Source: Pseudomonadota bacterium
Lineage (GTDB): Bacteria; Pseudomonadota; Gammaproteobacteria; Eutrophobiales; Eutrophobiaceae
Direction of reading: 5' to 3'
DNA length: 64,000 nucleotides
Assembly: GCA_013112535.1 (NCBI GenBank)
Contig: JABFGI010000006.1
Coordinates: 62,001 to 126,000, forward strand
The notes below the pieces were generated by a model. The model saw only the letters and a list, made by a program, of their open reading frames with translations, did not search any database and had not been told where the DNA came from. The translations under genes were made by a program, and so were the position numbers. Below are positions 11,375 to 55,350 of the stretch, piece by piece (within the stretch, counting starts at the first letter, position 1; each line of letters starts with the position of its first letter).

Positions 11375-12868
11375 TCAATGAGTGCTTGGCATTCTTGTTT
11401 TTTGCATAACAGTGGATTCTTCCAGTGAGTAATCAGGTGCGAGTTGAGTAAAGTTAAGAAAATAATCTCCTATCTCAAGTACATCTCCCTCATGTAATTC
11501 TGCTTTTCCTATTTTTTCATTATTGATATAAACACCATTCATTGAATCCAGATCAATAATTTCGAAACCACCATCGTTGTTTCTGTGTATTTCTGCATGA
11601 CGTCTGGAAATAGAAGTGTCATCAAGATGTAGTTCATTGTCTTTACTGCGCCCAATTCGACAGATTGTGCGAGTTATTGGATAGCGTGTCTGCTTTTCAT
11701 CATTAGAAATTAAATAGGCGTAAGGTCTATAAGAATTTTTAGAATTACCTGTTTGTTGTTGAGGTTTTTTCCATAAAAGAAATAAAGTAATTAATATAAA
11801 AATTATAATAATGATAAAAGCTGCTGGTAGACCGTACCAAATCCATAAGTTAATAGGCTGTGGCGCTGCTTGTTTAGTTATAATTTGTACGGGCGCTTTT
11901 CCTGATGAAGTGTTGTTTGAAATTATTTTTTCAGCTATAGCGCTCTCTGTCTTATTTTTAACATCCTTATGTTCAGGCTTTATCTTTACAGGTGCTTGAA
12001 TTCGTTTTAATCCAGCTTCAGTAGAAAAAGATAACGTAATATAATTTACTGCATTTTCAGCTTGATATAAATTATCAAGGGCAACAGAAAAACTTCCTCC
12101 GTTATCAATATTATCAAAAAGTTTATTCATTTCGCTTTTAGATATATTGTAAGATGTCTCTGTCTCTATATAACGCCCACCAGTTTCTTCGCTTAGTCGT
12201 CTTAATGTTTGTAAAGCAACTGACAAGGATATAGAACGAGGATACCCGATCGTGTTTATAACTATGCTATATTTTCTGGCCATTTTAATGACATCTGAAT
12301 GGAAGTAGGCTTTATCTTCAGCTTGTCCGTCAGAAAGCAAAACAATCACTTTTCTTTCTGCCTGAAATGTATGGAGCTGTTGGATTGCTTCCAGCAGGTT
12401 ACGATACAATTCAGTTGTTTTTCCTGATGCTTTTAGTGTTTCCAGTGATTTTGATAGTAAAAATCCAGACGTTCCAATAGTTGATTGAATCTTGAGCGAT
12501 TTATCAAATGAAGCCAGGCCTGCTTTTTGATGAGGTTTAAGGGATGAAATTATTTCCTTAATATGAGATTTATTTCTTTCAATAACATTTTGTCTTGCTG
12601 GATCGCTGGTGTCCACCAGAAACAAGATTGCGGTCTTTTCTTGTGCTTCTGGATATGTACTATTATTCGTGGTTTCCAGTTTTAATCCGTTTGAACTGGC
12701 ATCAATAGAAGAAACGTTTTTATTCGATATAGAACGATAATCGCAATTAAGCTTTTTCTGAATTTGCTGACAACTGACATCAAGGTCATTTGTAAGTGTA
12801 TTCCAGGCAATAGCCGGTATTGAAAATACAAGTAAAGGTAAAAAAATTGAAGTTGTTAGTTTATTCAA
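11375..12868 (-). CDS. vWA-transmembrane-FHA domain protein
   Basis: This 497-residue envelope protein has a signal peptide (about residues 1-21). A periplasmic von Willebrand A domain follows (about 79-260), then a proline/alanine-rich linker, one transmembrane helix (about 342-366) and a C-terminal FHA domain (about 398-475) on the cytoplasmic side. The FHA phosphopeptide-binding residues are visible as RIGRS, SISRRHAEI and NGVYIN. The vWA MIDAS motif reads DTSDP at 86-90 rather than DxSxS, so metal binding may be altered. It is the last gene of a four-gene minus-strand run (channel, DUF2135-like, small membrane protein, this). A role in signal-responsive force or adhesion is inference only. 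Confidence 0.85.
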   Translation of the reverse strand: MNKLTTSIFLPLLVFSIPAIAWNTLTNDLDVSCQQIQKKLNCDYRSISNKNVSSIDASSNGLKLETTNNSTYPEAQEKTAILFLVDTSDPARQNVIERNKSHIKEIISSLKPHQKAGLASFDKSLKIQSTIGTSGFLLSKSLETLKASGKTTELYRNLLEAIQQLHTFQAERKVIVLLSDGQAEDKAYFHSDVIKMARKYSIVINTIGYPRSISLSVALQTLRRLSEETGGRYIETETSYNISKSEMNKLFDNIDNGGSFSVALDNLYQAENAVNYITLSFSTEAGLKRIQAPVKIKPEHKDVKNKTESAIAEKIISNNTSSGKAPVQIITKQAAPQPINLWIWYGLPAAFIIIIIFILITLFLLWKKPQQQTGNSKNSYRPYAYLISNDEKQTRYPITRTICRIGRSKDNELHLDDTSISRRHAEIHRNNDGGFEIIDLDSMNGVYINNEKIGKAELHEGDVLEIGDYFLNFTQLAPDYSLEESTVMQKTRMPSTH

Positions 12869-12879
12869 AAATATATCCT

Positions 12880-13398
12880 TTAACTGCCTTTGTCAGGAAA
12901 TAGAGGATCCGGTAAATCATAAAATTCGATTTTAACTGATTTTACTCCACGACGTTGCTCATCCACCTTATTGAATACATCATCAGGTTTTTTAAATTCG
13001 CCTAGTTGAGCAATGTCTTTATCCAGTTTTGCTTTTACATTAACAATTTTTTCATGTAGTTCATTGGAATATTCGAGTTTATACGCCCTTGGTTCCGGCA
13101 AATCTGTCATGTTTTCAATTTCAGTTAACCAAAGGTAGATAGAACCTTCTTTACCTAACTCTTTATCCGGTTGGGAAACGTGTGCAGAAATCAAACGAAA
13201 CTGTGCAGGAGGATATTCAGAAGTTGGCCAACCGAGTAATGGTGGAAATGAATAATAACTGATGACATAGAACGCAGAGGTGATCACAATAGTGGCTGCT
13301 TTAACAGGCCATGACCATTTTGAATAAAGATTAATACTAAGTAAAAGCAGCGCAAGTAATATATATGCTGAAATAATACCGGTTATGCCCAAAGTCAC
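12880..13398 (-). CDS. Small two-TM membrane protein of the vWA-FHA locus
   Basis: I do not recognise a named family. The 172-residue protein has two hydrophobic helices at about residues 6-25 and 31-50. A soluble C-terminal part of about 120 residues follows, with a WLTEIENM segment and a charged, proline-rich tail. It lies 11 bp upstream of the vWA-FHA gene and 29 bp downstream of the DUF2135-like gene in the same orientation. Its conservation with that set would show whether it belongs to the same machine. Confidence 0.75.
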   Translation of the reverse strand: MTLGITGIISAYILLALLLLSINLYSKWSWPVKAATIVITSAFYVISYYSFPPLLGWPTSEYPPAQFRLISAHVSQPDKELGKEGSIYLWLTEIENMTDLPEPRAYKLEYSNELHEKIVNVKAKLDKDIAQLGEFKKPDDVFNKVDEQRRGVKSVKIEFYDLPDPLFPDKGS

Positions 13399-13427
13399 AA
13401 TAATTTCTCCAATTATTCTAGTTTTTA

Positions 13428-14021
13428 TTATCCAACATCTACAATAGATTTAGGTAAAAAGTTTATTCCATAAATACTTCCATCGTGGCCGATAGAAAAC
13501 CGGACCGCAGTTTTTTCATCACCTCTTTTCTCCATATTTACTGTACCATAGTAAACAATTTCCAATTTAGGATTCACCTTTGCTAGCCTCACATTTACAT
13601 CGACAGGATTGCCTGTTTCTGAAGCATAATAGTGAAGATTAACAATGTATTCACCTTTAACAACTCCTCTTAATGTTACAACTTCCTGATTGAGTGGATT
13701 TTGAACTTCTTCACCATTAATCGTTATGGTGTCATTAACCAAGCCGCGATCATCGCGATCCAGATGTAATAATCCTGCTTCAGGTGTTCTAAACCATACG
13801 ATTTGTCCTTCCGGATCCTCGACCCAGACATCCACATCATCAGGACTATTATCTTCCCAGGTAATGGTCAGTATATATTCGGCCTTTGGATCAATGATTC
13901 CCGATTTTGCTTCAGGATTCATGAACATGATGGCAACCAGAAATAAAAAGGTAAAACCCAACAAGGCGTTAAACAATAAGTCTGTAAACGGATCAGAACG
14001 AAGTCGATCTTTAACGCGCAT
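13428..14021 (-). CDS. Single-pass membrane protein with DUF2135-like periplasmic domain (ExbD/MotB-like N-terminus)
   Basis: The 197-residue protein starts with a short cytoplasmic segment, then one membrane helix (about residues 16-34) with an aspartate at its start (Asp14, in DPFTDLLFNAL). This layout resembles the proton-carrying helix of ExbD, TolR and MotB. The periplasmic part contains TWEDNSPDDVDVWVEDPEG and LHLDRDDRG, which resembles the DUF2135/YfaP-type beta domain instead of an ExbD or OmpA domain. It follows the MotA/TolQ-like gene by 5 bp, as expected for a stator pair. Family calls are by motif resemblance. Confidence 0.75.
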   Translation of the reverse strand: MRVKDRLRSDPFTDLLFNALLGFTFLFLVAIMFMNPEAKSGIIDPKAEYILTITWEDNSPDDVDVWVEDPEGQIVWFRTPEAGLLHLDRDDRGLVNDTITINGEEVQNPLNQEVVTLRGVVKGEYIVNLHYYASETGNPVDVNVRLAKVNPKLEIVYYGTVNMEKRGDEKTAVRFSIGHDGSIYGINFLPKSIVDVG

Positions 14022-14026
14022 GTTTA

Positions 14027-14770
14027 TTAAACACCGTTAAATTTTGGAATGACATGCACTTGAGTTAAATGCCGAGTTAACTCTATCAATTCATCGACAT
14101 GTCTATCGATCATATGATATTGCAAGGCAGACAGAATACTACATATTAAACCCGCGAGAGTGGTATAAAGAGCAGTACCCATACCATTGCTCATATGTTG
14201 TAAAATTTTCTGCATATTACTGACATCGAAATCAGCAATATTGGCAACTGAAGCTAACATGAAAATAAATCCAATAATGGTGCCAAGCAAACCAAGTTTT
14301 AACATCATATCTGAGACAAACCAGCCAAGTTCCTGCGGTCCTTTCAGACGTGATTCATAAACATCAATGAGATCAGAATGGGAACTGGATTCTTCTGAGC
14401 CGGATGTGTTTTTATTGGTGTAATACAGATCGCCTATATAGTCTGTCATAAAGCAATCAGGCAATTTTTTTGATGAGTTGATAAAAATCGCGTCATCATC
14501 AAACTTTAAATCAAGTTTGTCTTCATTTTTAATCATATTATCCACTTTTCGGGATAAATTAGTTTGTGAAGAAATGATATAAGTCAGTCTGGCGCAATGT
14601 AGGGTAACCAACAAATAAATTAACGCGATTACTGATGCAATACGACTCTTGTCGATATTAAAGAGTAGTGAAAAAACACCTTCATTCCATGCAATGATGA
14701 TAGAAAATGCGATAAGGCCAGTTAAAATCAGCCACTTAAGTAATAAACTATGTTCAGGTTGTTCCTTCAT
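14027..14770 (-). CDS. MotA/TolQ/ExbB-family proton channel-like protein
   Basis: The 247-residue protein has four predicted membrane helices at about 10-29, 44-66, 155-177 and 196-218. TM3 (LKLGLLGTIIGFIFML) and TM4 (MGTALYTTLAGLICSIL) carry the family pattern of MotA/TolQ/ExbB, and an acidic cytoplasmic loop separates TM2 from TM3. It is the first gene of the four-gene minus-strand set ending in the vWA-FHA protein. It probably forms an ion-conducting complex with the next gene product; the coupled work is unknown. Confidence 0.85.
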   Translation of the reverse strand: MKEQPEHSLLLKWLILTGLIAFSIIIAWNEGVFSLLFNIDKSRIASVIALIYLLVTLHCARLTYIISSQTNLSRKVDNMIKNEDKLDLKFDDDAIFINSSKKLPDCFMTDYIGDLYYTNKNTSGSEESSSHSDLIDVYESRLKGPQELGWFVSDMMLKLGLLGTIIGFIFMLASVANIADFDVSNMQKILQHMSNGMGTALYTTLAGLICSILSALQYHMIDRHVDELIELTRHLTQVHVIPKFNGV

Positions 14771-14808
14771 TTTTACTTATACCTTAGCGTTTAGTACACA
14801 GTTAGTAG

Positions 14809-15282
14809 TTAGTTATACTCAAGAATAAATGGGTCTTCCGAGGCTGCGTATTCTACCATTGAGCGTAATTTTTTATTAATATTTTTAGCGATTAAATCCA
14901 TTTGTTTGTTGCCTGTATTTACAGGTAGAAGACGTGTCCCTATTATGATTTTTTTCTTGTATTCAGTAGCCGTTACTTTATATGGACAGTAATTGATATA
15001 ACGAGGTTCAATTTTTAACATTTCTTCTGCTATGGTCAGATTGCAAAACAGGATAACTTCATTTTTAGGAAAGTCAGTATTACCCCGTTTTTGAATTGCA
15101 TCACCAATGTGTAGACGGTTGGTAATACGAAAATTATTTTCGGTGATAGCAAATTCACTATCTTGAATGACCTCTGCAAATGATTTTTTTGTGCTTTTTT
15201 CGTATATCTGATTTGATTCGTTTGAACATGCCGTTAACAGAATCAACTTGGAAATAAAAATAAAACTCAGGAATAACCTCAT
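14809..15282 (-). CDS. DUF302-like lipoprotein
   Basis: The 157-residue protein has a lipoprotein signal peptide with lipobox LTAC (Cys19). The mature part resembles the DUF302 family (NNFRITNRLHIGDAIQKRG, then VILFCNLTIAEEML and YCPYKVTATE), whose biochemical role is not known. The start codon overlaps the stop of the L,D-transpeptidase gene (ATGA), so the two are cotranscribed. It is likely anchored to an envelope membrane. Confidence 0.75.
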   Translation of the reverse strand: MRLFLSFIFISKLILLTACSNESNQIYEKSTKKSFAEVIQDSEFAITENNFRITNRLHIGDAIQKRGNTDFPKNEVILFCNLTIAEEMLKIEPRYINYCPYKVTATEYKKKIIIGTRLLPVNTGNKQMDLIAKNINKKLRSMVEYAASEDPFILEYN

Positions 15283-15842
15283 TCTTTAATAATGACTGGT
15301 GTGCCCACATCAACAAACTTTCTCAAGTCATTTATTTCCTCGTTAGTTAATGCAATGCAACCTTCAGTCCAGTTTATTTCTTGATGAATAGTTAATTTTT
15401 CATCATTTTGAATGCCTAGTCCATGGATCCCAATAAATCCTCCTAGTTCAGTATCTTGCGGTGGTGTTTCCCGGTTTTTATAAGCTGCTGCGATACGTTT
15501 AAAATCTTTTGCATCAATCGTTTTATTTTTATAACCATACCAGGCATCAATTAAATTTGGGTAATCTAACTGAATAAAATAATGAAAACGGCTGCTTTTT
15601 TTAAATTTCGCAATTCGGTAGGTACCCTGTGGGGTCTTGCTATCGCCCTGACGACGCTTTGTTCCTTTACCACCCTTACCACTGGCAATATGATATTTCT
15701 TTACAACTTCGCCTGCTTTTTCGACGATGAGTTCATGATTTTTTTTTGAGATTAATATCTGATACTCGCTAGCTTGTGCTAAAGGTATGAGCGAGAACAT
15801 GAATATTAATAGCGATAGTTTTAATATAAGGTGCTTACTCAT
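15279..15842 (-). CDS. L,D-transpeptidase (YkuD domain)
   Basis: This 187-residue secreted protein has a signal peptide (about residues 1-24) and one YkuD domain. The active-site signature is visible: IHGLG, then TEGCIALTN with the nucleophilic cysteine near residue 162. The SKTPQGTYRI segment is also typical. Such enzymes make 3-3 crosslinks in peptidoglycan or attach proteins to it. The TEGC motif replaces the more common S-x-G-C. The specific substrate cannot be inferred. It is in an operon with the DUF302 lipoprotein. Confidence 0.9.
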   Translation of the reverse strand: MSKHLILKLSLLIFMFSLIPLAQASEYQILISKKNHELIVEKAGEVVKKYHIASGKGGKGTKRRQGDSKTPQGTYRIAKFKKSSRFHYFIQLDYPNLIDAWYGYKNKTIDAKDFKRIAAAYKNRETPPQDTELGGFIGIHGLGIQNDEKLTIHQEINWTEGCIALTNEEINDLRKFVDVGTPVIIKE

Positions 15843-16539: not shown

Positions 16540-16626
16540 TATGGTTTAGATAGATAAGAGTTTGCTTATAGATTTTCGGCTGCTTGCTCGAAGCGCAGCT
16601 CTACCGCCTACTTCCCTGTAGGCGTA

Positions 16627-16656
16627 AAAAAAGGGAATCATAGGACTCCCTTTTTT
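16627..16656. terminator. Bidirectional intrinsic terminator between cytochrome b561 and pqqA
   Basis: The arms AAAAAAGGGA (16627-16636) and TCCCTTTTTT (16647-16656) form a hairpin with a 10-nt loop and a T-run on both strands. It can therefore end transcription of the plus-strand cytochrome b561 gene and of the minus-strand pqqA gene. A second hairpin, CGCCTAC-TTCCCT-GTAGGCG at 16605-16624, adjoins it. Confidence 0.75.
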
Positions 16657-16675: not shown

Positions 16676-16750
16676 TTACTTGTTGTTGATGTACATGGTG
16701 ACTTCGAAGCCAAAACGAATGTCACTGTATTCTGGAGTTTCCCATTTCAT
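16676..16750 (-). CDS. pqqA: PQQ precursor peptide PqqA, orphan copy
   Basis: This 24-residue reading frame encodes a PqqA peptide beginning MKWETPEYSD and ending VTMYINNK. The glutamate and tyrosine that are fused to make PQQ are Glu16 and Tyr20 in the E-x3-Y motif. A strong ribosome site (AGGAG) precedes the ATG. It stands alone, about 38 kb from pqqBCDE, and is divergent from a histidine kinase gene. Compared with the second copy at 55071-55145 it differs at four residues (4, 7, 13, 22) while ten other codons differ silently. This argues that both are maintained as functional peptides. Confidence 0.95.
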   Translation of the reverse strand: MKWETPEYSDIRFGFEVTMYINNK

Positions 16751-16820
16751 GTTAACTCTCCTCATAGTGTTATTAAAAGAACCCGGAAAACCGGGACACA
16801 TATATTTCGTGCACAATTTG

Positions 16821-16840
16821 TATATCACCTATCGTGCCAA
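16821..16840 (-). promoter_or_regulatory. Possible sigma-54 -24/-12 element for orphan pqqA
   Basis: On the minus strand the sequence TTGGCACGATAGGTGAT has a perfect -24 box (TTGGCACG). The -12 box reads GTGAT in place of TTGCA/T, so the essential GC is GA. It lies about 70-90 nt before the pqqA start. It could be a weak or degenerate sigma-54 promoter, and the resemblance may be chance. The partner element before the other pqqA has an intact GG-N10-GC. Confidence 0.35.
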
Positions 16841-16946
16841 TTTAATTAAATTAAATATTAACTAATAAAATCAATTGCATATATGAAATAAGTAGAATGT
16901 ATTTTCCTTCTAATTTTACTATTTTGGCTAATATTACCCAATTTAT

Positions 16947-16964
16947 TTGGTTCATTTGAACCAA
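16947..16964. promoter_or_regulatory. Palindrome TTGGTT-N6-AACCAA, candidate operator (copy 1)
   Basis: The sequence TTGGTTCATTTGAACCAA is an inverted repeat with 8-bp perfect arms and a 2-bp centre. The same TTGGTT-N6-AACCAA pattern recurs at 55333-55350. It lies 197 bp upstream of the orphan pqqA start and 20 bp upstream of the divergent histidine kinase start. There it would overlap a possible promoter whose -10 could be TATACT at 16973-16978. It is probably a binding site for a dimeric regulator. Confidence 0.6.
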
Positions 16965-16984
16965 TACTAGGTTATACTTGACCG

Positions 16985-18439
16985 ATGTCCTTAAGACGCC
17001 CTAAGTCATTAAAAAACCTTATATTTCGTCATGAAATTGCTATTTTGTTCCTGGTTGCAGTTACTGGTTTACTAGGCGGACTATCTGCTTACTTTTGGCA
17101 GCAAAATTCATCTGAATCTGTTCGAATTAATTCCATGTTTTATCTAACTGAGCAAATCAGAGGCGAACTCTACGCCCAAATACAGGAAATGATCCGAGCT
17201 CGAGTACTTGAAGACGAACGAGCATTAGAAGCCTATCCAGAATATTCACGTAGTATTTCTGAAAGGTTCAATGAGCTGAGAAGGCGTTCCCGATCACGTG
17301 AAGAAGATATCTCTATTCAGGAATTGAATCTTTCTTATCGGGAAATTCAGGGGGATATGAATAATATTTTTAATGACCCGTATGCCGCGAATCGATTTGC
17401 ACGAATACAGATTCTGAATCCGACATTCGCACAACAAATGGTTGGTAAATTTGAAAGCCGGTATTTTTCCTTCAAACAGATTTTATCCGAACAGCATAAA
17501 AAACTGGATGAAACCCTGGCAATGTGGACCAGGTTTGCTCCTTTTGTAATACCGATTCCATTAATTATTGCGTTTATCATTGTTTTTTATACACGACATA
17601 TTATGCGTACTGAGTTCATTAAACCGTTGGCAAAAATAGTAAAAGGTGCCGCTGAAATCAGTCATGGCAAACTGGATTACCATATTGAAGAGACTGGCGT
17701 TGAAGAAGTTTCTGAGCTGGCAAATGGCATTAACATAATGGCTAAGGAACTTGCAGAGAGTCGAGACGCAATGGTTGAGAATGAAAGGCAAGCGGCATTA
17801 GGTTCGCTGGTTCCTGTTGTTGCACATAATATCCGTAATCCGTTAGCCAGTATTCGTGCAACAGCACAATTATTAGAACATACCGAAAATCAGGAAGAAA
17901 TTCGCGAATCAAGTCATACGATTATGGAGACAACTGACCGTCTGGGACGGTGGGTTAGTTCATTGGTCTCATATCTTCACCCGTTAAAACCTAACCTGAG
18001 GAATGTGGACGCAATAACGTTGATCGATGCAGCTCATGGATTGTTAAATAGTAAAATTGCTGAAAAGAATATAAAAATCATTAAAGAAGGTTGGGAGCTT
18101 TCTCAAGAATTGAATGTCGATCCGGATTTAATGGAACAGGCTTTGTATAGTTTGTTGGCTAATGCTGTCGATGCTTCTCCAAAATCAGGCACAATAAAAA
18201 TAAGTTTGATAAAAACAAATGATTATATCGAGTATCGTATTCTTGATAGCGGCCCGGGTTTACCTTTTGAACCAACACCCGGAAAACTGGAACCTGGTCC
18301 TTCAACAAAGAAATTTGGCACAGGTTTAGGTATTCCGATTGCGTTCAAGATTTGCCAGAAACATGGATGGAATTTAAATTTTAATGTGATTGATGGTCAG
18401 GGAACAGAAACCATTGTTTCAGCTCCAATTGAAAAATAA
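16985..18439 (+). CDS. Membrane sensor histidine kinase (HAMP-HisKA-HATPase)
   Basis: The 484-residue protein has two membrane helices (about residues 15-37 and 185-205) flanking a helical periplasmic sensor region, then HAMP. The dimerisation domain has the phospho-acceptor histidine in VVAHNIRNPLASIRA, and the ATPase domain includes LDSGPGLP and GTGLGIP. It forms an operon with the NtrC-type regulator 17 bp downstream. The gene is divergent from the orphan pqqA with the shared palindrome just before its start. A role in controlling PQQ genes is inferred from position only. Confidence 0.9.
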   Translation: MSLRRPKSLKNLIFRHEIAILFLVAVTGLLGGLSAYFWQQNSSESVRINSMFYLTEQIRGELYAQIQEMIRARVLEDERALEAYPEYSRSISERFNELRRRSRSREEDISIQELNLSYREIQGDMNNIFNDPYAANRFARIQILNPTFAQQMVGKFESRYFSFKQILSEQHKKLDETLAMWTRFAPFVIPIPLIIAFIIVFYTRHIMRTEFIKPLAKIVKGAAEISHGKLDYHIEETGVEEVSELANGINIMAKELAESRDAMVENERQAALGSLVPVVAHNIRNPLASIRATAQLLEHTENQEEIRESSHTIMETTDRLGRWVSSLVSYLHPLKPNLRNVDAITLIDAAHGLLNSKIAEKNIKIIKEGWELSQELNVDPDLMEQALYSLLANAVDASPKSGTIKISLIKTNDYIEYRILDSGPGLPFEPTPGKLEPGPSTKKFGTGLGIPIAFKICQKHGWNLNFNVIDGQGTETIVSAPIEK

Positions 18440-18456: not shown

Positions 18457-19857
18457 ATGGATGATCTAATTACATCTGCAGAAGTTCCTGTTCTGGAAAA
18501 ACGAATTCTTTTAGTCGAAGATGAAAGTGTTTTTGCAAAAGCAGTAAAAAAACATTTAGAACGTGCTGACTATAAAGTTTATCTCGCGGGCGACCTGGAA
18601 ACAGCCAGAGAACAATATAAAAATAACTCGCCTGACCTGGTGCTACTCGATATGCGCTTGCCAGATGGTTCTGGTCTGGATTTACTTTCAGAAATAAAGT
18701 CATCAATTACAAATACATCTGTTCTTGTTATGTCAGCTTACGGCGAACTGGAAGATGCTGTGTCAGCTATGAAGTTAGGAGCTTCCGATTACTTAAAAAA
18801 ACCAATAGATCTGGAAGAACTAATTATTAATGTAGAAAAAGTACTGGATAAAAGCGAACTGACACAAAAATTGACAAACTCTGCAAAGCGGGAGCAGCAT
18901 GCTACAGAAACTGTTGAGTTTTTAGGAAAGTGTAAGGAAATTAAAGCGGTTCGCGATCAAGTCGAGCGTATTTCAAAATTATCCCAATCAACAGAAGTCA
19001 TCCCGCCTACAGTATTAATACTTGGTGAAACTGGAACAGGTAAAGACGTTGTTGCAAGACTGTTACATGAAAAAAGCAGTCGTCATCAAAAGCCATTTGT
19101 ACATGTTGATTGTGCATCTTTACCCAAAGAATTAATTGAATCGGAATTGTTCGGTCATGAAAAAGGTGCGTTTACTAATGCTCATGTTGCACGTACCGGT
19201 TTAATTGAAGCCGCTGAAGACGGCGTTTTGTTTCTTGATGAAATTGGTGAGTTACCTTTGGATTTGCAATCAAAGTTACTGGCTGTCCTGGAGAGAAGAA
19301 CCCTAAGACGTGTTGGTACGACACAAGAACGACCAGTAGCGGCATGGATTGTGGCTGCCACGAATCGAGATATCGAATCATTATCAGAAAAAGGTGAATT
19401 CAGATCAGATTTATATTATAGATTAAATGTTATGTCACTTTCGATGCCTGCGCTACGAGAACGAGGCAATGATATTTTATTATTAGCAAATCATTTTGCG
19501 GGCCAGACATCAAGACGTTATGGGTTGCAGTTCGAAAATTTTTCAGAAGAAGCAGAAGAAACATTACTCGATTATCCGTGGCCGGGAAATGTACGCGAGA
19601 TGAAACACTTATTGGAACGTGCTGTCCTGTTAAGTGGTGGCGGTGTACTTGAAACAAATATATTAGGTCTGGATAAAAAGTCTGAACCTAAATTAGAAGA
19701 AGGTGAAATGAATGATGATTTGACTTTAGGTGAGGCCGAATTGCATCTAATTAAACAGGCGTTAGAAAGAACGAATCGCAACGTTTCAAAAGCAGCAAGA
19801 GAATTAGGCATAACCAGAATGGCATTACGTTATCGGATAAAGAAATATAATTTATAA
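18457..19857 (+). CDS. NtrC-family sigma-54-dependent response regulator
   Basis: The 466-residue protein has a receiver domain with the phospho-acceptor aspartate in LVLLDMRLPDG. An AAA+ domain follows with Walker A GETGTGKD, Walker B FLDEIGEL and ESELFGHEKGAFTNA, then a C-terminal Fis-type helix-turn-helix (RNVSKAARELGITRMALRYRI). The sigma-54 contact loop reads GAFTNA where most family members have GAFTGA. It is the cognate partner of the histidine kinase upstream. It may recognise the TTGGTT-N6-AACCAA palindrome found before both pqqA genes; this is untested. Confidence 0.93.
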   Translation: MDDLITSAEVPVLEKRILLVEDESVFAKAVKKHLERADYKVYLAGDLETAREQYKNNSPDLVLLDMRLPDGSGLDLLSEIKSSITNTSVLVMSAYGELEDAVSAMKLGASDYLKKPIDLEELIINVEKVLDKSELTQKLTNSAKREQHATETVEFLGKCKEIKAVRDQVERISKLSQSTEVIPPTVLILGETGTGKDVVARLLHEKSSRHQKPFVHVDCASLPKELIESELFGHEKGAFTNAHVARTGLIEAAEDGVLFLDEIGELPLDLQSKLLAVLERRTLRRVGTTQERPVAAWIVAATNRDIESLSEKGEFRSDLYYRLNVMSLSMPALRERGNDILLLANHFAGQTSRRYGLQFENFSEEAEETLLDYPWPGNVREMKHLLERAVLLSGGGVLETNILGLDKKSEPKLEEGEMNDDLTLGEAELHLIKQALERTNRNVSKAARELGITRMALRYRIKKYNL

Positions 19858-51818: not shown

Positions 51819-52982
51819 CTAAGCTGTTTCTGACGATTTCTTTTTTATGATTTCTCTGGAGTTCTTCATGTTCCTGAATACCATCGGTTTTTCTTCAAGT
51901 TCAGGTGTCCCTGCGAGCTCGTCAACCCGATCAACAAGATCTGTTATCTTGCTATGATACGGAGATTTGCTACATACCGGATCAGCATTAGTCGCATCAC
52001 CCGTTAGCATATAAGCCTGACAACGACAGCCTCCTAAATCTTTTTCTTTTTCATCGCATGAAAGACAGGGTTCTTTCATCCAGCCAAGTCCGCGATATTT
52101 TTGAAAATCAGGAGATTCATTCCAAATCCAGTCAACACTATGATCTTTAACATTTGGAAATTCGAGACCGGGTAGTTGTCGCGCTGCGTGACAGGGAAGG
52201 GCTGTTCCTTCAGGTGTAATCGTCAGAAAAACCTTTCCCCAACCATCCATACATTTCTTCGGACGATCTTCAAAGTAATCCGGAATGACATAATATATCT
52301 TCATTTTACCTTCCAGCTTTTCCTGATATTCTTTTGCAACTATTTCAGCATGAGCAAGTTGTGCTTTAGTTGGGAGAAGTTGTTCACGATTGTGATATGC
52401 CCAACCATAATATTGCGTTGTTGCCAGTTCGACATAATCAGCTTCGAGAGCAACACATAAGTCAAGTATGTCTCTAATCTGATCTTCATTTCTACGGTGA
52501 AGAACAAAACATAACACCATCGGGTATCCATATTTTTTTACCAGCCGCGCCATTTCTTTTTTATGTTCAAATGCATCAGTCCCGGCAATAAGGTTATTTA
52601 AATCTTCGGTACTTGCTTGAAAACTGACCTGGATATGATCTAGACCTGCTTTCTTAAATGCCTTAATACGTTTTTCATCCATGCCTATGCCTGATGTGAT
52701 TAGGTTGGTATAGAAGCCAAGTTGTCTGGCTTCTGCAATTAATTCTTCCAGATCAGGTCGAGTGAGGGGTTCACCGCCGGAAAAACCAAGTTGTGTTGCT
52801 CCCATCTTACGTGCTTCGCGTAGAACTCTAATCCAGTCATCAGTAGCAATTTCATTTTTTACCTTAGCCATCTCTACCGGATTTGAACAATAGGGACATT
52901 GCAATGGACAGGCATACGTTAGTTCACACAACAACCATAATGGTTGAGGTATTTTATTTTGTTCTGATCCAGCCATTGCCAT
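51819..52982 (-). CDS. pqqE: PQQ synthesis radical SAM enzyme PqqE
   Basis: PqqE forms the first carbon-carbon bond between Glu16 and Tyr20 of PqqA. The radical SAM cysteines are in CPLQCPYC (C-x3-C-x2-C) near the N-terminus, and the SPASM domain has further cysteines near the C-terminus ([16 protein letters not shown]). The ATG at 52982 is chosen because GGAGG is 6 bases upstream; TTG 52988 and ATG 52976 are alternatives. It overlaps pqqD. About 387 residues, normal length. Confidence 0.96.
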
Positions 52983-53247
52983 GGGCAACCTCCAAAAATT
53001 TTAAAATATCTTCTTCAAGATCTGCGCCTGAATATTTCTTCTGCAAATCTTCAATAATTGTTTTTACATCTTTCTCACCATCGCATTGTTGTAATATTTC
53101 TGCCGAAGTAGGATTGAGTTTAACCATGCCTTCGGGATAAAGGATGACATGACAATCCTGTGCCTCTTCCCATTGCAGGCGATGAGTAGATGCAAATGTC
53201 GGTATAACATCAGGTCCAATCGCTTTGTCTGTTTCATCTTTAAGCAT
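52954..53247 (-). CDS. pqqD: PQQ synthesis peptide chaperone PqqD
   Basis: PqqD binds PqqA and delivers it to PqqE. The 97-residue protein has the PqqD winged-helix pattern: [24 protein letters not shown], then [16 protein letters not shown] and the acidic C-terminal part. The ATG at 53247 with AAAGGAT upstream is preferred over a TTG at 53268 that overlaps pqqC. Its 3' end overlaps pqqE. Confidence 0.95.
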
Positions 53248-53261
53248 CAGTAAATTATCCT

Positions 53262-53987
53262 TTAACAATTATGATAGGGTGGTTTTTTCTCAATATAAGC
53301 CATCCACATACAATCACACATAGTCCAGAGCACGTCGAGTTTAAATTGCAGGACATTTAACATCATTTCCTGTTGTTCTCGTGTCTTATAATAATCCAGC
53401 GTTATTTCAAGGCCACGCTCAACATCTCGTCGTGCTTCGGTAAGCCGTTTAGTAAAATAGCGGTAACCTTTAGACTGGTCGATCCAGGGATATTTATCAG
53501 GCCAGTTATCAATACGATCTTTGTGTATCGTTGGTGCAAAAAGTTCTGTTAAAGAAGAACTGGCTGCAACTTGCCAGGGTTGTTGCTTGGCAAAATTGAT
53601 ATAAGCATCGATAGCAAATTTAACACCAGGTAATAAATGTTTGTGTGTTAAAAGATCTTCGCGCGGTAAACCTACTGAGTCTCCCAATTCCAGCCATGCT
53701 TCAATGCCACCTGAATCTTCTTCATTACCGTCATGGTCAATAATACGTTGTATCCAATGCCGACGGACTTCCCGATCCCAACAGTTAGACATAATGGCGG
53801 CATCTTTAACAGGAATAGCGACTTGATAATAAAAACGATTAGCAACCCAGCCACGTACAGCTTCTTCATCAAGTTTGCCTTCATTCATCAAAACATGAAA
53901 CTCATGGTTTCTATGATAAAACCTGGACTTGTCTCGTAATTTTTGTTCGAATTCTTCTTTAGTCCAGGGTGTTGTTTCATTAGTCAT
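53262..53987 (-). CDS. pqqC: PQQ synthase PqqC
   Basis: PqqC catalyses the final ring closure and eight-electron oxidation to PQQ. The 241-residue protein has the all-helical heme-oxygenase-like fold with conserved blocks [26 protein letters not shown] and [17 protein letters not shown]. It is encoded between pqqB and pqqD in the usual order. Confidence 0.97.
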
Positions 53988-54006
53988 TAAGTATTACTCC
54001 AAAAAG

Positions 54007-54921
54007 TTAAATATTTATATCCATACCGTCATAGGAAACTTCAATACCAAGGGCATCAAGTTGTTTTCTCTCATCCGACTCTTCATCCAGAATTGGATTA
54101 GTATTATTAATATGAATTAAAATTTTTCGTGGTTTTTCAAGGCCGGATAACATTTCCATGATGCCGCCTTTACTTGATTGGTCAAGGTGCCCCATTTCAC
54201 TGGCTAACTTGTCACTAATACCATGTCGTGACATTTCGTCATTAGTCCAGACTGTTCCATCAACTAAAACAACATCAGCATTACTCATGAATTCAAGAAC
54301 ATGATCTTCCATCGTGCCGAGCCCGGGTGCGTAAAATAAATTTTTACCAGTAGAAGTATCTTCTACTTTATAGCCGACATTATCGCCGGCAACGGTATTG
54401 TGCCTGTGTGGTGAAAAAGGAGGAGCCTCACTTTTCAAGGGAACTGCTGTAAAAATCAGGTTATCAGCTTTTGGAATTTCAAAGGGAGTTTGCTCCGTAC
54501 TAACTTCATGCCAGTTAACCCCACGAAAATGGCTGAGCATGTTAAAAATTGGATATCCCGTCGTCATATCTTCATGAACAGCTGATGTACAGTAAACATC
54601 CCAGGGTTTGTCGTGTTCTCTCATGATAATTAAACCGGTTGTATGATCTATTTGTGCATCACAGAGAATAATTGAACAAATACCGGTATCACGAATTTTT
54701 CGAGCAGGTTGTAATGGTGGAAAAGATTCTATTTGTGCTCGGATGTCAGGAGACGCATTGAATAAAACCCAGTCCTCACCATTTCCGCTAACGGTAATGG
54801 ACGATTGTGTGCGTGCAGAGCTTTTAATGGATCCTTTACGGAGTCTGCTGCAATTGTGGCAATTACAGTTCCACTGAGGAAAACCACCGCCAGCTCCAGT
54901 GCCTAATAAACGTATATGCAT
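54007..54921 (-). CDS. pqqB: PqqB metallo-beta-lactamase-fold enzyme
   Basis: PqqB is a metal-dependent hydroxylase-like enzyme acting on the crosslinked intermediate in PQQ synthesis. The 304-residue protein begins HIRLLGTGAGGGFPQWNC and has the CNCHNC zinc-type cysteine cluster. It contains the metal-binding block AQIDHTTGL of the beta-lactamase fold. It lies 19 bp before pqqC and 149 bp after pqqA. Confidence 0.96.
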   Translation of the reverse strand: MHIRLLGTGAGGGFPQWNCNCHNCSRLRKGSIKSSARTQSSITVSGNGEDWVLFNASPDIRAQIESFPPLQPARKIRDTGICSIILCDAQIDHTTGLIIMREHDKPWDVYCTSAVHEDMTTGYPIFNMLSHFRGVNWHEVSTEQTPFEIPKADNLIFTAVPLKSEAPPFSPHRHNTVAGDNVGYKVEDTSTGKNLFYAPGLGTMEDHVLEFMSNADVVLVDGTVWTNDEMSRHGISDKLASEMGHLDQSSKGGIMEMLSGLEKPRKILIHINNTNPILDEESDERKQLDALGIEVSYDGMDINI

Positions 54922-55070: not shown

Positions 55071-55145
55071 TTACTTATTATCGATATACATTGTTACTTC
55101 AAAGCCGTAACGGATATCGCTGTAATCAGGTGTAGACCATTTCAT
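55071..55145 (-). CDS. pqqA: PQQ precursor peptide PqqA, operon copy
   Basis: A 24-residue PqqA peptide starting MKWSTPDYSD and ending VTMYIDNK, with the precursor Glu16 and Tyr20. It is the first gene of the pqqABCDE operon, divergent from the H4MPT-type genes. It differs from the orphan copy at residues 4, 7, 13 and 22, with ten further codons differing silently. A candidate sigma-54 element and the shared palindrome lie upstream. Confidence 0.97.
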   Translation of the reverse strand: MKWSTPDYSDIRYGFEVTMYIDNK

Positions 55146-55185: not shown

Positions 55186-55203
55186 GAGCTATAATCATGC
55201 CAG
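55186..55203 (-). promoter_or_regulatory. Possible sigma-54 promoter of pqqABCDE
   Basis: On the minus strand CTGGCATGATTATAGCTC has GG and GC separated by exactly ten bases, the sigma-54 -24/-12 spacing, about 43 bases before the pqqA start. The -24 box (TGGCATG) is close to consensus TGGCACG. The -12 box reads TAGCT. The shared palindrome is about 140 bp further upstream, a normal enhancer distance. Confidence 0.5.
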
Positions 55204-55332: not shown

Positions 55333-55350
55333 TTGGTTAATATGAACCAA
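55333..55350. promoter_or_regulatory. Palindrome TTGGTT-N6-AACCAA, candidate operator (copy 2)
   Basis: The sequence TTGGTTAATATGAACCAA repeats the TTGGTT-N6-AACCAA pattern of 16947-16964. It lies 188 bp upstream of the operon pqqA start and about 60 bp before the likely ATG of the divergent DHPS-like gene. It may serve both transcription units. Both copies are in the pqqA intergenic regions, so they are probably bound by the same regulator. Confidence 0.6.

Follow-up and report, generated by a model that had tools for sequence, protein, structure and literature searches.

The 64,000-nucleotide stretch of gammaproteobacterial DNA analysed here (the window) carries a complete pqqABCDE operon and a second, solitary pqqA, which lies back to back with a histidine kinase gene and an NtrC-type regulator gene. 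This raises the question of what the solitary copy is for and whether it has a control circuit of its own. The available excerpts of earlier reports describe several pqqA genes, most of them apart from the operon, in Methylophilaceae, Methylovorus MP688 and Methylorubrum extorquens (PMC4109929, PMC11317620, PMC9851590), and indicate that some methylotroph copies stand alone and are differently expressed. A shared regulator, sigma-54 control or a leader is not described in these excerpts. The regulation of PQQ synthesis is called unclear even in model bacteria in the part of the literature available (PMC9851590).

Results

The orphan gene is an intact open reading frame on the reverse strand (16676-16750), which encodes the 24-aa PQQ precursor peptide MKWETPEYSDIRFGFEVTMYINNK and scored 41 bits against the PqqA family profile PF08042 (cut-off 21.1). 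It is preceded by a ribosome-binding site region with AGGAG, read through the start codon (TGAGGAGAG, 16742-16764, reverse strand), and followed by an intrinsic terminator made of a hairpin and a T-run (AAAAAAGGGAGTCCTATGATTCCCTTTTTTT, 16626-16656, reverse strand). A preliminary description of the locus had claimed a lone pqqA next to a kinase/regulator pair, with its own ribosome site and terminator and about 38 kb away from the operon, and our reading frame, profile match and coordinates bear this out. Its codon comparison with the operon pqqA (55071-55145, reverse strand, likewise a PqqA profile match) was also exact, with four amino-acid and ten silent differences. Among 30 kinase-adjacent pqqA copies of the family, the amino acid was unchanged at most positions and many codons varied silently, and the amino-acid variation was concentrated at positions 4, 7 and 9. 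A conserved Glu...Tyr pair (E-x3-Y) is the hallmark of PqqA, and E16 and Y20 were invariant in these copies. A near-invariant peptide despite silent codon changes agrees with the purifying selection and old origin that had been proposed.

The description spoke of two PqqA genes, which proved wrong, as the profile search found four in the genome: the orphan, the pqqA of the operon, a solitary gene on contig 11 (C11:11584) and one on contig 2 (C2:540660). The other operon genes, pqqE, pqqD, pqqC and pqqB, occupy 51819-54921 on the reverse strand, and PqqB, PqqC, PqqD and PqqE each exceeded the cut-offs of the NCBIfam equivalogs. The contig-2 copy encodes a divergent variant (MQWVDPAYCDLRLGFEVTAYVYVR) and is the first gene of a second pqqA-pqqD-pqqE set (G000:C2:540660-542225, L006:10660-12225), near which neither pqqB nor pqqC was found; PqqA of this type also occurs in G005, G012, G038, G049 and G052. 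This set may feed PQQ synthesis or make another product, and similar pqqADE sets are reported from other methylotrophs in the excerpts available. H4MPT-type genes adjoin the pqq operon and the genome also has an MDH-type gene, which suggests that the host is a methylotrophic gammaproteobacterium. In genome G011, an SAH riboswitch was seen directly downstream of a contig-11-type pqqA (L012:1764-1848).

The divergent orientation of the orphan and the pair, already noted in the preliminary description, was confirmed by Pfam and the coordinates. The sensor histidine kinase (HAMP, HisKA and HATPase domains; 16985-18439) and the NtrC-type response regulator (18457-19857) are both on the forward strand, and the receiver, sigma-54 AAA+ and Fis HTH domains of the latter (PF00072, PF00158 and PF02954) were all above cut-off. 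The likely -10 box of the kinase gene (TTATACT) and its start lie at 16970-16987 on the forward strand, as read from the sequence, and a GTATAAC motif recurs in relatives. In NtrC-type activators, the GAFTGA loop contacts sigma-54. The loop of this regulator reads GAFTNA, and most orthologues have GAFT[NSDHT]A, with GAFTGA or GAYTGA in a few. The gene rpoN was present in 48 of the 53 family genomes, this one included. The phospho-acceptor box of the kinase (residues 281-286) is H-N-I-R-N-P, with Asn after the His, and was invariant in 35 aligned kinases. Structure prediction of the kinase followed by a PDB fold search gave matches to the catalytic core only and revealed no ligand.

The region shared by the orphan and the kinase gene contains a predicted upstream activating palindrome (TTGGTTCATTTGAACCAA, 16947-16964) that matches TTGGTT-N6-AACCAA exactly and overlaps the -35 region of the predicted kinase promoter. 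In tandem with it stands a second, weaker predicted regulator palindrome with two mismatches (TTGGCTAATATTACCCAA, 16924-16941). The pqqABCDE operon also has a predicted activating palindrome with an exact match (TTGGTTAATATGAACCAA, 55333-55350). A sigma-54 promoter is recognised by GG at -24 and GC at -12, 10 bp apart. Both are found in the sigma-54-like element of the operon (TGGCATGATTATAGC, 55188-55202, reverse strand), whereas that of the orphan (TGGCACGATAGGTGA, 16825-16839, reverse strand) has an intact -24 box and GA in place of the -12 GC. The exact palindrome occurs only four times in the 3.05-Mb genome, every time upstream of a pqqA, the operon included, and the contig-11 copy is preceded by two palindromes with one mismatch. 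The other one-mismatch palindromes of the genome that could be read were inside open reading frames (10 of 10). All three non-orphan pqqA copies have a palindrome together with a -24/-12 element upstream. A genome-wide search for palindromes with two mismatches performed no better than the control, and there was no exact palindrome near either of the genome's two quinoprotein dehydrogenase genes. The MDH-type quinoprotein gene (L176:1203-3165, G000:C16) has its own sigma-54-like element (TGGTATACCTCCTGC) with a sigma-54 activator gene upstream, so that sigma-54 may be needed for the quinoprotein as well as for the supply of its cofactor.

The same elements were counted in 53 family genomes with 98 pqqA copies, 96 of which entered the palindrome and shuffle counts; dinucleotide shuffles and an everted pattern were the palindrome controls. 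When up to one mismatch was allowed, the core palindrome was found at 92 of the 96 copies, compared with 1.8 expected from the dinucleotide shuffles, and the full palindrome at the same stringency at 53 of 96 (0.25 in shuffles). A sigma-54 element lay within 150 bp of 87 of the 96 copies against 2.35 in shuffles, and a -24/-12 element with no more than one mismatch preceded 95 of all 98 copies. The distance from palindrome to -24 box clustered at about 102, 124 and 146 bp, that is, in steps of two helical turns. The 53 genomes hold 35 exact palindromes, 21 of them upstream of a pqqA or pqq operon, and five matches to the everted control. The intergenic design is conserved: a palindrome next to the start of the kinase gene, in many cases with a second one 22 bp away, is combined with a -24/-12 element, a structured leader and AGGAG. 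This predicted motif arrangement upstream of the pqqA copies is the layout expected of an enhancer-binding activator. Three extra orphan pqqA copies (MNWQTPEYNDIRFGFEVTMYINNK; L022, L027 and L235, in three genomes of the genus) have neither palindrome nor sigma-54 element.

Two features set the kinase-adjacent copy apart. The first lies in its -12 box: GC has given way to GG, GA or GT in this genus, as well as in one neighbour species and the small-genome genus g16, but is retained by the other pqqA copies. In more distant genera the kinase-adjacent copy has the canonical TGC in most cases and CGC in a few. The lost -12 C of the orphan promoter may mean either a weaker promoter or activator-independent expression. 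The second feature is a double hairpin in the 5' leader (H1 GCACG..UGUGU, H2 CCCGG..CCGGG; 16782-16813, reverse strand), which starts at about the predicted +1. The two hairpins abut, 94.4% of cells were paired and in five of ten pairs both partners had changed (0 of 500 shuffles), and the covariance model built for it (R1) matched strongly at kinase-adjacent pqqA copies only. No Rfam family reached its gathering score, either across the window or at those pqqA leaders that were scanned. A c-di-GMP riboswitch has been reported beside a Methylophaga pqqA (PMC12530212); the Rfam scan did not find it at the pqqA copies covered. The predicted double hairpin probably stabilises the orphan mRNA.

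These data bear on two other readings of the orphan. The first is that it is a decaying duplicate without a role, for which one could cite the degenerate -12 box of the clade and the kinase-adjacent copy of G005 (L040, G005:C39:27-83), where TAA replaces the Glu-16 codon near a contig end, whether as a real stop or an assembly error. The 30 copies with an almost invariant peptide and silent drift, together with leader hairpins maintained by compensatory change, make this very hard to credit. The second is an inducible circuit private to the orphan, which would yield additional PQQ precursor independently of the operon; it would suit a leader and a -12 box that are distinct on the orphan copy only, as well as an adjacency to the pair that is conserved across genera. 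We consider it unlikely, however, as the palindrome and the sigma-54 element are common to the operon and the other pqqA copies. The dedicated control circuit of the preliminary description thus stands in part: the link to the pair is conserved and the control looks dedicated, but it does not appear private to the orphan. The inducible additional precursor that it proposed is a plausible outcome.

The kinase and the regulator were both found in the same 39 of the 53 family genomes, and in 31 of these genomes, which represent 13 of 14 genera, a pqqA divergently adjoined the kinase gene (a count that includes the copy with an in-frame stop). Genomes with the pair had a pqqA in 38 of 39 cases, those without it in 6 of 14 (p 2.7e-5, uncorrected for relatedness). 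Among 369 genomes sampled from the class, relatives of the kinase with 35-55% identity occurred in about 16 other gammaproteobacterial families, and pqqA adjoined them in six. The absence of the association in relatives had been named beforehand as a finding that would refute the preliminary description; the association is present in 31 of 39 family genomes with the pair and in six further families, and so does not refute it.

The pair sits in an old block with the order VWA, LDT, cytochrome b561, ..., kinase, regulator, SRPBCC and NDH-2. In the window, positions 11375-15842 carry genes for VWA/FHA, 172-aa, 197-aa, MotA-like, DUF302-like (a label of our own interpretation) and L,D-transpeptidase proteins, and this block travels with the pair across gammaproteobacterial families. 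In other families, the position ahead of the kinase gene is taken by pqqA, by an MDH-type quinoprotein gene, by a gene for a PqqU-like TonB receptor or by other genes; several of these families have no recognisable PQQ gene there, and pqqE or pqqBCDE lies near the pair in some. A distant pair, whose kinase is 39% identical, has a TonB receptor gene (L327) that also carries the palindrome and the sigma-54 element; the receptor scored 453 bits against a curated PqqU cut-off of 1200 and is therefore named PqqU-like only. Two other candidates for PQQ evidence were rejected, namely ABC transporters near some kinases (best score drrA, below cut-off) and a sorbosone-dehydrogenase-like gene with no NCBIfam match. 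Of the four nearest named regulators, which belong to Methylophilus and relatives, three are encoded after a TonB receptor gene; one of the four has tandem palindromes with a -24/-12 element, and another has an MDH-type gene upstream.

It could be argued from this ancient block, which sometimes lacks a PQQ gene, that the palindromes serve another factor, that the pair regulates something else and that the adjacency is inherited synteny. In line with this, G034 (rated 100% complete), G001 and G050 keep palindrome and sigma-54 element, and no pair was detected in them. On the other hand, in nearly every genus the palindromes lie within the region shared by the divergent genes, the distant pair has the same palindrome at its PqqU-like gene, and in Methylophilus the regulator gene comes after a TonB receptor gene that carries these palindromes. 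This explanation therefore seems improbable to us.

Discussion

Our results suggest that the two-component system encoded divergently from the orphan controls a pqqA regulon of which the orphan is a part, a reading that we regard as very likely from the motifs and their conservation. Within this regulon, the orphan is probably the member linked to the regulator and not a separate circuit. From the genes, motifs, conservation, statistics and rpoN that were computed, we infer phosphorylation, binding, the direction of control and the signal as follows. The membrane kinase would phosphorylate the NtrC-type regulator, which would bind the TTGGTT-N6-AACCAA palindromes located upstream of the sigma-54 promoters at a distance of about 100-150 bp. 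From there the regulator would drive every pqqA of the genome, those of the pqqABCDE operon and the pqqA-pqqD-pqqE set among them. Since the operon and the other pqqA copies share the palindrome and the sigma-54 element, the circuit most likely serves the whole PQQ precursor supply. The short stand-alone pqqA genes would provide more of the consumed precursor without more of the enzymes. The regulator probably also controls itself, because the palindrome closest to the kinase gene overlaps the predicted promoter of that gene. PQQ shortage or quinoprotein demand is the most likely candidate for the signal, although this is the weak step; it is a guess drawn from the gene neighbourhoods, with pqq genes, quinoprotein genes and, in a distant relative, a PqqU-like receptor with the same operator.

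The proposed system resembles NtrC-family systems such as ZraSR, AtoSC and NtrBC in its sensor kinase, its REC-AAA-Fis regulator and the predicted palindromic enhancers and sigma-54 promoters. It differs from them in its predicted targets, the pqqA genes, in the GAFTNA loop in place of GAFTGA, and in a regulator score far below every named equivalog cut-off (377.8 against 714 for AtoC). In Pseudomonas, PQQ synthesis is likewise regulated together with quinoprotein use by AgmR/ErbR (PMC12997753), but this is a LuxR-type activator of the pqq operon, and the available excerpts of that paper describe neither sigma-54 control of pqq nor an orphan pqqA. Among the open-access papers that were searched, including those on Methylophaga, no description of a pqqA/sigma-54/NtrC circuit was found.

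A broader reading can be put forward tentatively, as a real possibility rather than as our expectation. The pair may be a widespread gammaproteobacterial two-component system dedicated to PQQ homeostasis, which would sense PQQ or quinoprotein demand in the envelope. Through one palindrome/sigma-54 code it would raise pqqA in bacteria that make PQQ and a PqqU-like uptake receptor in others, and the pqqA leader RNA would add post-transcriptional control.

Nearly every pqqA copy can be predicted from one regulator, the 18-bp operator that it would bind and one class of promoter. With this, the regulation of PQQ and the reason for the many pqqA copies of methylotrophs become directly testable, and handles for PQQ production are provided.
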